Source: a virus. From it: DNA of 64,000 nucleotides. Of the stretch, positions 8,830 to 18,302 are shown one piece after another; within the stretch, counting starts at the first letter, position 1; each line of letters starts with the position of its first letter. The notes under the pieces were generated by a model, which made no database searches, had not been told where the DNA came from, and was given only the letters and a program-made list of their open reading frames with translations. The stretch covers positions 1 through 64,000 of the IMG/VR virus record IMGVR_UViG_3300043410_000857; one strand, written 5' to 3'. The translations under genes and the position numbers were made by a program.

Positions 8830-8979
8830 ATGTACGAATTTTGGTATGAAGCGTTAGACAAAAAGGGCAGATTGTTAGGTATGGTACATGGTAAGAACGA
8901 TGAAGATGCTATGAGTAAGGCAAGACATCTTTATGGACTAGCAGTCATTGAAGTTAACATTGTGGAGGAAACAAAATGA
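8830..8979 (+). CDS. Small protein (49 aa)
   Basis: The ATG follows directly after the previous stop, and the TGA overlaps the next ATG (ATGA at 8976). The sequence pattern is strand-strand-helix-strand with an EDAMSKA helix, a fold common in tiny phage proteins. Function unknown. Confidence 0.75.
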   Translation: MYEFWYEALDKKGRLLGMVHGKNDEDAMSKARHLYGLAVIEVNIVEETK

Positions 8980-9185
8980 AAACATTTAAAGTAAGCATAC
9001 CAAGACGAGTGTCTTTTACCGATTGCGAAGTATTCTTTGTTGAGGCAGAGACAGAACAAGAAGCTATTAGTATGGTGCATGAAAGTAATGACATAGGGGA
9101 GTTTGTGAATCAAGGCGATTATGAAACCGAGTATGTCTATGAAACCGAGGCAGAAGAAGTTAAACCATTGGAGGTGGCAGTATGA
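8976..9185 (+). CDS. Small acidic protein (69 aa)
   Basis: Shows the same strand-helix pattern as its upstream neighbour (AETEQEAISMV helix) with an acidic C-terminal tail rich in Glu and Tyr. ATGA overlaps link it to both neighbours. Function unknown. Confidence 0.75.
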   Translation: MKTFKVSIPRRVSFTDCEVFFVEAETEQEAISMVHESNDIGEFVNQGDYETEYVYETEAEEVKPLEVAV

Positions 9186-9391
9186 AAGTAAAAGACCTAA
9201 TAGAAAAGTTAAGAGTTATGCCAATGGACTACGATGTAAGGATTGAGTATGACAAATCTTTAAAAGAAATGGAGTCAATGGCACCGGAAGATTTCCTAGT
9301 AAACTTTTGGATTGATAATGTAGAACTTCACAAGCATGGTTCAAGTGGGTATGAAGAGTTTGGCGAAGTTGTGATAAGGGGGACAGAATGA
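9182..9391 (+). CDS. Small protein with KVKDLIEKL N-terminus
   Basis: 69 residues. The N-terminal MKVKDLIEKL followed by a MP-x-D motif occurs in many short phage and plasmid proteins of unknown role. Overlaps both neighbours by 4 bases (ATGA). Confidence 0.75.
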   Translation: MKVKDLIEKLRVMPMDYDVRIEYDKSLKEMESMAPEDFLVNFWIDNVELHKHGSSGYEEFGEVVIRGTE

Positions 9392-15821: not shown

Positions 15822-16061
15822 GTGAATGACGCAAAATTACAAGGGTTAGAACCATGGCAAATGAAAATATTTGCAAAGAACGCAAAACGTGGATGGAGAT
15901 TCTTCCAACCTGATTCGATTGAGAAGCCAACACCTCGTTCTGCTTATGAAGCTTGGGGTAGTAGTTATAACCGAGATGACTTCGAGAAAAAAGAAAAACG
16001 CTACCAAAGAATTATGGCTTGTATATTTATCGTGGCTCTGATATTATTATCGATATTGTAA
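15822..16061 (+). CDS. Small tail-anchored membrane protein (GTG start)
   Basis: GTG 15822 is chosen because of the strong GAGGAG at 15809-15814; a longer in-frame ORF from 15678 would overlap most of the zinc-finger gene. 79 residues: a polar domain followed by one C-terminal hydrophobic segment (IMACIFIVALILLSIL). Last gene before the structured RNA region. Confidence 0.68.
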   Translation: MNDAKLQGLEPWQMKIFAKNAKRGWRFFQPDSIEKPTPRSAYEAWGSSYNRDDFEKKEKRYQRIMACIFIVALILLSIL

Positions 16062-16109
16062 AGGTTATGGGCGAAAGCACTTATATGTTTAAATTCGTGA
16101 TGGTATTTT

Positions 16110-16120
16110 TGCTATATATT
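16110..16120 (+). promoter_or_regulatory. Possible extended -10 promoter of the polymerase leader
   Basis: TGC followed by TATATATT, an extended -10 arrangement like the TGCTATAAT at 60579-60571 (minus). No good -35. A start near 16125 would place the whole hairpin-rich block in the leader of the polymerase mRNA. Confidence 0.4.
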
Positions 16121-16420
16121 AACCGCGAGTAGCCCACCAAAAATCCTACAATGCAAGTAGGCCAGCCAGAGATCATATACTCCTTATCGGCTGGGGTCAA
16201 TGACGGCACCGCTATCTGTCGTTTGCATAAGATAGCAAAGATATGAGGGAAAGTAACACGGGCAACACGGATGACGGCGACGCTGTTTAACAGTATCCAC
16301 CCGCACATCGAGGTCGGGAAGTCTGCCTTATGCGTTAGAATTAACGTTGAGTGCTGTGACTGCAACCTTGGGAACCCGACGTGGCTAGTAGTGTACAGAC
16401 TAGTATAAGTACCTCACCAA
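16121..16420 (+). ncRNA. Candidate structured RNA / leader of DNA polymerase
   Basis: This gene-free stretch is visibly richer in G and C than its surroundings and packed with perfect stems: CCTAC/GTAGG (16145-16161), CCAGCC/GGCTGG (16162-16194), GCTATCT/AGATAGC (16211-16236), nested CGGG/CCCG, GGAT/ATCC and CTGT/ACAG (16259-16303), GTCGGG/CCCGAC (16313-16380) enclosing CGTTA/TAACG and GTTGAGT/ACT-g-CAAC, and CTAGT/ACTAG (16385-16403). TGAGG (16244-16248) pairs with CCTCA (16412-16416), closing a multibranch domain. No terminator follows; the polymerase ribosome site is 11-17 bases beyond. I could not match it to tmRNA, RNase P, group I introns or a known riboswitch. Confidence 0.55.
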
Positions 16421-16442
16421 TTTAAAACGCGGAAGGGCGCAC

Positions 16443-18302
16443 ATGCAATTAGTAACACTAGACTTTGAGACCTACTATGACGTAGGTTTTTCACTTTCAG
16501 GTTTAACCACAGAGGAGTACATCAGAGATGAAAGATTCCAAGTTATCGGCGTTGGTATTAAAATTAACGAAGGCGAAACGGAGTGGTATACGGGCAGTCA
16601 AGCCGGTGATGCGCTTAGTAAAATTAACTGGAAAGAATCCGCGCTCTTATGTCACAACACTCAGTTTGACGGTGGCATTCTGTCTTTCAGGTATGGTATT
16701 GTTCCTAGTTTATACCTTGATACTTTGTCTATGGCTCGCGCTATTAATGGCGTTGACGCCGGTGGAAGCCTTGCTTATTTGGTTGAAAGATATGAACTTG
16801 GCGCTAAAGGTACCGAAGTCGTTGACGCGAAAGGCAAGAGGTTAGAAGATTTTAACGATGACGATCTATTAAGATATGGTAGTTATTGTATCAACGACGT
16901 TGAACTCACATACAAGTTATTCCAAGTATTAGCACCGCAATTCCCCGAAGAAGAAATCAAACTTATTGACATGACCTTGCGCATGTACACCGAGCCTACA
17001 CTTGAGGTCGATGACGCCCTTTTACAAGCTAGGTTAGAAGAAGTCCAAACAGAGAAGCAGTTATTGTTACAAGGTTTAATGAGTAAACTCGAGTGTCAAA
17101 CGGAAGAAGAAGTTCGTGCTAAGTTAGCATCGAATAAACAATTTGCAGAGCTCTTAGTTGAGCTTGGTATTACGCCACCTACAAAAATAAGCCCAACAAC
17201 AGGCAAAGAAACATTTGCATTAGCAAAAGGTGACCAAGCATTCTTAGATTTATGTGAACACGAAGATCCATTTATTCAAGAACTTTGTCGCGTGAGGTTG
17301 GGTACTAAAAGTACTATAGAAGAATCTCGTATTGAAAGGTTCATCGGTATTGGTTCGCGTAATAAAGGTAAGCTTCCTATTCCGTTGAAGTATTATGGCG
17401 CACATACAGGTCGATGGGCAGGTTCAGATAAAGTTAACTTCCAAAACTTACCCGCAAGAGATAAGAAAAAGAAAGCCCTCAAGAACGCGGTCATCGCACC
17501 ACAAGGACACCAAGTCATAAACTGTGACTCATCTCAAATTGAGGCTCGTGTTTTAGTTTGGGTAGCAGGACAGAACGATGTATTGAATTGGTATGCAGAA
17601 GGTCGCGATGTATATTGTGAGTTTGCTACTAAAGTCTATGGTAAACCTATTACAAAGAAAGATAATACAGAACGTGCCGTAGGTAAGACTTGTATTCTAG
17701 GACTAGGTTATGGCACAGGATGGGCAAAGCTACAACATACACTTAAAATCGCTGCCGGTGTAGAGTTTGATGAACAAGAATGTAAACGCCTCGTAGGTGT
17801 GTATCGCGAGGTTAATGATAAGGTAATCCAGTTATGGAAAGCATGCGATGATGCATTACAAGATATTGCAATATGGCCAAAAGGTAAAGAGCCATATCAT
17901 CTAGGTCCTACAAAAGCTTTACTTGTAACACCTAAGGGCATACAATTACCGAACGGATTATATATTACATATCCTGGACTTACGTGGGATACTTCAGAAT
18001 CAAAGAGTAAATTTGTATATAAATCAAGACGGGGCTTTAATAGTATATGGGGTGGATCCGTAGTGGAGAATGTGATTCAAGCGTTAGCCCGTATTATTGT
18101 AGGCCAACAGATGTTAGAGATTAATAAAAAGTATCGTCCTGTGTTAACGGTTCACGATGCGGTAGTCTGTGTTGTTCCGAAGATAGAAGTAAATGAAGCC
18201 CTTTCCTTCATAACTACGACTATGTCTAATCCTCCTAGTTGGGCAGCCGGACTACCTGTAGCGTGTGAAGCAAAGCATGGCGATAGTTATGGAGATTGTT
18301 AA
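16443..18302 (+). CDS. DNA polymerase family A with 3'-5' exonuclease
   Basis: 619 residues, two domains. The proofreading exonuclease (about 1-190) shows DFETY at 7-11, NTQFDGG and YCINDVELTYKL. The polymerase domain has motif A (CDSSQIEARVL, D362), motif B (R411, K415, Y423) and motif C (VHDAV, H571-D572). The residue equivalent to E. coli Phe762 is leucine (L419), a variant linked with slower, more faithful polymerases in environmental phages. There is no 5'-3' exonuclease domain, as usual for phage enzymes. The ribosome site GGAAGGG (16431-16437) follows the structured leader. It replicates the phage genome together with the primase-helicase downstream. Confidence 0.96.
   Translation: MQLVTLDFETYYDVGFSLSGLTTEEYIRDERFQVIGVGIKINEGETEWYTGSQAGDALSKINWKESALLCHNTQFDGGILSFRYGIVPSLYLDTLSMARAINGVDAGGSLAYLVERYELGAKGTEVVDAKGKRLEDFNDDDLLRYGSYCINDVELTYKLFQVLAPQFPEEEIKLIDMTLRMYTEPTLEVDDALLQARLEEVQTEKQLLLQGLMSKLECQTEEEVRAKLASNKQFAELLVELGITPPTKISPTTGKETFALAKGDQAFLDLCEHEDPFIQELCRVRLGTKSTIEESRIERFIGIGSRNKGKLPIPLKYYGAHTGRWAGSDKVNFQNLPARDKKKKALKNAVIAPQGHQVINCDSSQIEARVLVWVAGQNDVLNWYAEGRDVYCEFATKVYGKPITKKDNTERAVGKTCILGLGYGTGWAKLQHTLKIAAGVEFDEQECKRLVGVYREVNDKVIQLWKACDDALQDIAIWPKGKEPYHLGPTKALLVTPKGIQLPNGLYITYPGLTWDTSESKSKFVYKSRRGFNSIWGGSVVENVIQALARIIVGQQMLEINKKYRPVLTVHDAVVCVVPKIEVNEALSFITTTMSNPPSWAAGLPVACEAKHGDSYGDC

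Follow-up and report, generated by a model that had tools for sequence, protein, structure and literature searches.

Several described RNA systems offer the closest comparisons for the phage locus presented here. Glutamine riboswitches (Rfam glnA and Downstream-peptide) combine an E-loop with a pseudoknot and occur in aquatic bacteria and phages. Type III toxin-antitoxin systems of the ToxIN type have pseudoknotted RNA modules arranged in tandem shortly before a gene, while the put RNAs of phage HK022 are cis-acting antitermination elements located near early promoters. C-rich sRNAs such as RNAIII and RsaE pair with Shine-Dalgarno sites through UCCC loops. The GOLLD and ROOL RNAs are hundreds of nucleotides long and have conserved cores other than those described below. 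They are large, structured and often phage-borne, and their structures are available (PMC12286853).

We have analyzed a stretch of 64,000 nt (IMG/VR virus record IMGVR_UViG_3300043410_000857, positions 1 to 64,000), referred to here as the window. Early-type genes of the window are oriented rightward between ~5 and 28 kb, and the RNA locus lies inside this run, with a small gene upstream and a DNA polymerase gene directly 3' of it. The plus-strand early-type genes (5.4-28.2 kb) meet long minus-strand genes (28.2-64 kb) at ~28.2 kb, where the GC skew peaks. Plus-strand sequence near the array yielded neither a sigma-70 promoter nor a terminator. A sequence-only reading of this DNA had described the gap before the polymerase gene as a gene-free, GC-richer block with a single structured RNA of about 300 nt at 16121-16442. 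The gap does lack a conserved coding frame, and its GC content is 48%, against about 35-40% in the surroundings. The upstream gaps of 42 IMG/VR loci fetched with the window DNA polymerase were compared. The structured part proved to span 16069-16418, so that the earlier coordinates had cut its first element, and it consists of three separate tandem RNA modules, M1-M2-M3, rather than one fold (Table 1). A structured RNA is therefore present by homologue comparison, but its extent and single-fold layout had been misjudged.

The many perfect stems reported previously are also present, but they do not exceed chance by fold energy. The stretch 16121-16442 folded no better than shuffled sequence on the plus strand (z +0.29) or on the minus strand (z +1.18), nor did M3 folded alone (z +0.78). 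Since these energies are at the shuffled level, the stems by themselves are at chance level and the structure can be proved by comparison only; folding energy alone, with z near 0 as here, would miss a real RNA.

Table 1. Features of the array locus (window positions unless a locus is named)
Feature	Position	Strand	Basis or remark
Stop codon TAA of upstream gene	16059-16061	+	sequence; P1 of M1 starts 7 nt further on
M1, alpha type of clamp family	16069-16138	+	covariance model match, 47.7 bits, E 3.4e-14
M1 P1 stem	GGGC 16069-16072 / GCCC 16132-16135	+	compensatory changes in near-identical relatives
M1 loop-E-like element	GAA 16073-16075 / AGTA 16128-16131	+	
M1 3' ACC	16136-16138	+	
M2, double pseudoknot	16145-16236	+	34 homologues, helix covariation
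M2 hairpin A	16145-16149/16157-16161	+	
M2 kissing pair, loops A and C	16151-16156/16223-16228	+	
M2 variable hairpin B	16162-16167/16189-16194	+	
CTCCTTA in hairpin B loop of M2, anti-Shine-Dalgarno-like	16180-16186	+	CTCC enrichment among M2 members
M2 second pseudoknot	16203-16207/16218-16222	+	
M2 hairpin C	16211-16217/16230-16236	+	
M3, long member of clamp family	16245-16418	+	covariance model match, 27.6 bits, E 3.8e-7
M3 P1 stem	GAGG 16245-16248 / CCTC 16412-16415	+	lengthened by T16244-A16416
M3 loop-E-like element	GAA 16249-16251 / AGTA 16408-16411	+	
M3 3' ACC	16416-16418	+	
DNA polymerase, family A type, 619 aa	16443-18302	+	ORF; Pfam DNA_pol_A in homologous downstream genes
Third structured element	L155 10420-10520; L334 2045-2140; L294 6740-6850; L171 338-440; L158 988-1060; L228 4477-4550		

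M1 and M3 have in common a clamp, composed of a GC-rich P1 stem, a loop-E-like GAA/AGUA element and a 3' ACC. GAA opposite AGUA beside a stem is what we take, from the sequence, to be the loop-E (bulged-G) signature. M1 has the outline GGGC-GAAAGC ... GCG-AGTA-GCCC-ACC and M3 the outline GAGG-GAAAG ... AAGTA-CCTC-ACC; in both, P1 lies directly outside GAA and AGUA and shows the covariation of the family, and ACC follows directly 3' of P1. A covariance model trained on 86 diverse clamp modules, with M3 excluded, found exactly two matches in the window, M1 and M3. The long-range pairing of TGAGG (16244-16248) with CCTCA (16412-16416) in the sequence-only reading is real as the P1 of M3, with support from this model, but not as the closure of a single multibranch domain. 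Two of the three elements in the window are thus members of a large uncatalogued family carried by many uncultivated phages, in which, judged by sequence comparison, a constant clamp encloses variable interiors.

Pattern scans of IMG/VR recovered at least 102 stretches with the GGGC form of the clamp and at least 120 with the GGGG form, and the family extends over hundreds of uncultivated-phage contigs. P1 was fixed in these scans, and an extra scan was therefore run for beta-type modules with P1 and flanks left free; 122 distinct modules were obtained among the matches listed. P1 forms 4 bp in 113 of these 122, compared with a mean of 43 and a maximum of 54 after shuffling, and it pairs in 47 of the 56 modules that lack GGGG (9 when shuffled). 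The second stem of the beta-type modules also pairs more often than in shuffles, and ACC stands 3' of P1 in the majority of this unbiased set, although not in all. In the clamp alignment 99% of P1 cells are paired and 67 cells are changed on both sides, versus 12.7 in shuffled alignments; sliding the alignment by one column reduces P1 pairing to 65-73%. Among alpha modules in loci fetched through M2, the interiors are almost the same while P1 is compensated as GAGC/GCTC, GAGT/ACTC and GGGT/ACCC; two array copies (L045 and L054) have a mismatch. The G-U pairs seen in P1 point to an RNA rather than a DNA structure. That the clamp modules constitute a new RNA family is, in our judgement, almost certain.

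The interior of M3 is a different matter. A search for relatives through the ends of M3 returned one chance match with no real similarity, and three relatives (L004, L006 and L008) have the same M1-M2 without M3. The stems within M3 are putative and have no homologue support, whereas its P1 clamp is backed by the covariance model.

M2 does not resemble the clamp modules. A scan for it recovered at least 41 stretches, and in 34 homologues 98.2% of the cells in four helices, including the kissing pair and the second pseudoknot, are paired; this falls to 28-45% when the alignment is slid. Cells changed on both sides number 46, against 13.5 in shuffles, and the kissing pair itself covaries, from ATGCAA/TTGCAT to GTGCAA/TTGCAC. 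Hairpin B contains CUCC in 14 of 20 non-redundant members (1.9 when shuffled) and CCUCC in 7 of them (0.4 expected). M2 also occurs without M1 (L393, L394 and L396) and in tandem with itself (L395, L401 and L408).

The sequence-only reading could not assign a known RNA class, and our searches agree with it. Rfam 15 gave no family at the gathering threshold in the window and nothing up to E 10 in 15900-16700. With beta modules there were four weak matches, to snoRNA and lncRNA models at chance level; with a beta-gamma array there were none, and 20 further module loci gave nothing but an RT-15 RNA elsewhere in L112. This RNA (RF03018, E 6e-43) is at 2460-2651 on the minus strand of a contig in which a clamp module is present as well. 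ARAGORN found no tRNA cloverleaf in the window, and in the open literature we found no paper describing the clamp family or M2. Two strongly covarying RNA families, one of them represented hundreds of times in environmental phages, thus appear to be undescribed. A third conserved structured element was noted near arrays at six loci (Table 1); it reads AGCCGGAGGTGGC...CACCGGCAGC, followed by a stem of GGGG/CCCC type that ends in GCACC.

The make-up of the array varies widely even upstream of the same polymerase gene. The window has the full M1-M2-M3 set, and its relatives have M1-M2 (L002, L003, L006 and L008), an extra GGGG module plus M1-M2 (L004), M1 only (L001, L011, L017 and L035) or no module at all (L005, L007 and L013). 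In five others (L010, L018, L020, L022 and L023) a small cysteine-containing, zinc-ribbon-like ORF replaces the array, and the slot upstream of the DNA polymerase is hypervariable. In related phages the gene that follows the alpha M1 may be the DNA polymerase, but also a primase-like gene or yet another one, and the records of some close relatives lack the module; this speaks against a leader specific to the polymerase gene. More generally, arrays are typically set among replication and nucleotide genes, with family members preceding MazG, primase, DNA polymerase, DUF3310, RusA-like and HTH genes. Roughly a third of 100 upstream genes matched ssDNA-binding protein (SSB) families, although the upstream gene in the window lineage is not an SSB. 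In 109 modules a stop codon lies 5-8 nt before P1; a start codon follows the element by 10-30 nt in about half of the modules, and in about half of cases the next ribosome-binding site follows closely on the end of the array.

Arrays are usually single. The pattern occurs once in 29 of 30 virus records of 32-75 kb (the reversed-pattern control gave zero occurrences in the same 30), and covariance model matches were found in 30 of 33 records, nearly always at one locus, with three records lacking a match; some of the records counted are fragments. An extra clamp copy is present in a few records (G024 and G007); in G024, the record of L164, it is a second, weaker module on the opposite strand (8903-8995, minus). 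Among named isolates, BLAST gave weak matches only, with one true member, at 9258-9354 of MW202879.1, a GenBank entry of environmental origin (Manatee Spring). A strict beta pattern scan of bacterial genomes yielded 1 contig among the matches listed, and in one bacterial phylum the clamp was found in 2 of 151 genomes, one of the two being weak.

Of the three roles proposed earlier, namely a novel regulatory leader, a ribozyme-like element and a trans-acting phage RNA, the last appears to fit best. The elements of the array probably act as RNA and not as a switch for the polymerase gene, and a role in phage biology is likely given the usual single array, its placement with replication genes and the swapping of modules. 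Our leading reading, held tentatively, is that of a portable non-coding RNA array which is co-transcribed with the early operon and acts in trans, and which is not a polymerase-specific switch. Three independent RNA modules would sit inside the early replication operon and be transcribed together with it, since P1 begins so soon after the stop codon that there is little room for a promoter of its own. This spacing would also fit, from known ribosome geometry, a fold just outside the terminating ribosome, left unwound. The clamp might allow each module to fold alone and to be recognised, and modules so clamped may persist, or be excised through cuts in the linkers, which are rich in A/U. The array would then work in trans as a non-coding RNA cassette, in which the CUCC loop of M2 could plausibly pair with Shine-Dalgarno sequences and reduce translation of target mRNAs. 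A trans cassette is favoured by the accessory make-up, the absence from close relatives, the presence of unrelated folds in one slot and the CUCC loop; the difference in module combinations between close relatives speaks for portability. A more specific version, in which we place somewhat less confidence, is an undescribed, widespread phage system: a portable, usually single array of interchangeable loop-E-clamp modules, joined by double pseudoknots with anti-Shine-Dalgarno loops. The array would be freed from the replication operon and then work in trans, either on translation (of host or phage) or on the defences of the host.

Chance stems, or translation of the minus-strand frame at 16081-16365, hardly merit belief: fold energy at the shuffled level is what chance would give, but M1 and M2 covary strongly among homologues, and M1 ranges between 55 and 79 nt in length by steps other than multiples of three, so that the frame is not kept. 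This explanation is refuted for M1 and M2, and for M3 as far as its P1 clamp is concerned. A regulatory leader of the polymerase gene, either riboswitch or protein operator, would agree with the placement of the array, which immediately precedes the polymerase start both in the window and in many relatives, and the CUCC loop could mask a ribosome-binding site. However, a leader of a single gene should stay with that gene, and M1 does not; related phages have the same alpha module ahead of different genes, further members of the family precede genes as varied as those listed above, and polymerase genes of close relatives have no array. With several downstream genes, there is no conserved association with one gene or pathway, and we consider a leader quite improbable. 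A repeated gene-expression element was ruled out, as such an element should recur and the array is usually single per record.

Three options remain after these exclusions: an RNA working in trans, an mRNA element between cistrons, or an element at the level of the genome, for instance an origin. The intercistronic explanation, by which an array closing the upstream cistron at its 3' end blocks or directs ribonucleases in cis, so that the mRNAs of its neighbours differ in lifetime with no action in trans, is unlikely but is the rival we take most seriously. The sharp gap to the upstream stop codon, the frequent SSB genes upstream and the end of many arrays just before the next ribosome-binding site are all in its favour; yet a plain hairpin would suffice as a barrier, and a clamp with unrelated pseudoknot modules exceeds that need, while the window lineage has no SSB upstream and most genomes have one copy only. 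The position right after SSB genes could nevertheless mean that the array influences the SSB mRNA in cis, the CUCC loop of M2 could have the downstream ribosome-binding site as a cis target, and the position shifts on which the trans argument is based could also arise by recombination of a cis element. We give little credence to a replication origin or primer RNA, whose transcript would stay hybridised or be processed and prime DNA synthesis. A usually single locus among replication genes would suit it, but the GC skew does not turn at 16 kb (the window minimum is at 4.8 kb and the maximum at 28.2 kb), the array is missing from records of close relatives, and one slot hosts unrelated RNA folds. 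Equally little credence goes to a self-cleaving ribozyme or tRNA-like RNase P substrate, for which a conserved pyrimidine-G on the 5' side of P1 and the ACC on its 3' side would mark processing sites. Modules have no G at -1 and a G at +1 of P1, and in L187 (6541-6679) a clamp module ending in ACCA is followed by a tRNA-Gly gene with 0 nt between them. P1 is only 4-7 bp, however, Rfam shows no likeness to ribozymes or tRNA, and ACCT ends are as frequent as ACCA ends in the unbiased set, with no conserved CCA. A tRNA-like 3' CCA end was dropped when the unbiased scan gave ACCT, ACCA and ACCC, and L187 is the sole tRNA-adjacent case, so that a general association with tRNA was rejected.

Compared with the known systems, the array resembles GOLLD and ROOL as a structured phage non-coding RNA but differs from them in length and cores, and it has no Rfam match. 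With glutamine riboswitches it shares the E-loop and the pseudoknot, but their conserved residues are others and their genes are metabolic, and the array had no Rfam match to them even at E 10. Tandem pseudoknotted modules upstream of a gene recall the type III toxin-antitoxin systems; here, however, the modules are mutually unlike and the next gene is of replication type, such as the DNA polymerase of the window, with no toxin family among the first 25 families of each list drawn up for 95 downstream genes. The put RNAs are likewise structured RNAs of about 70 nt in phage early operons, but by description they are set apart from the array, which lies in mid-operon, 5-8 nt past a stop codon. 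M2, finally, presents a CUCC loop as the C-rich sRNAs do, but is itself held by two pseudoknots and lies within a phage array.
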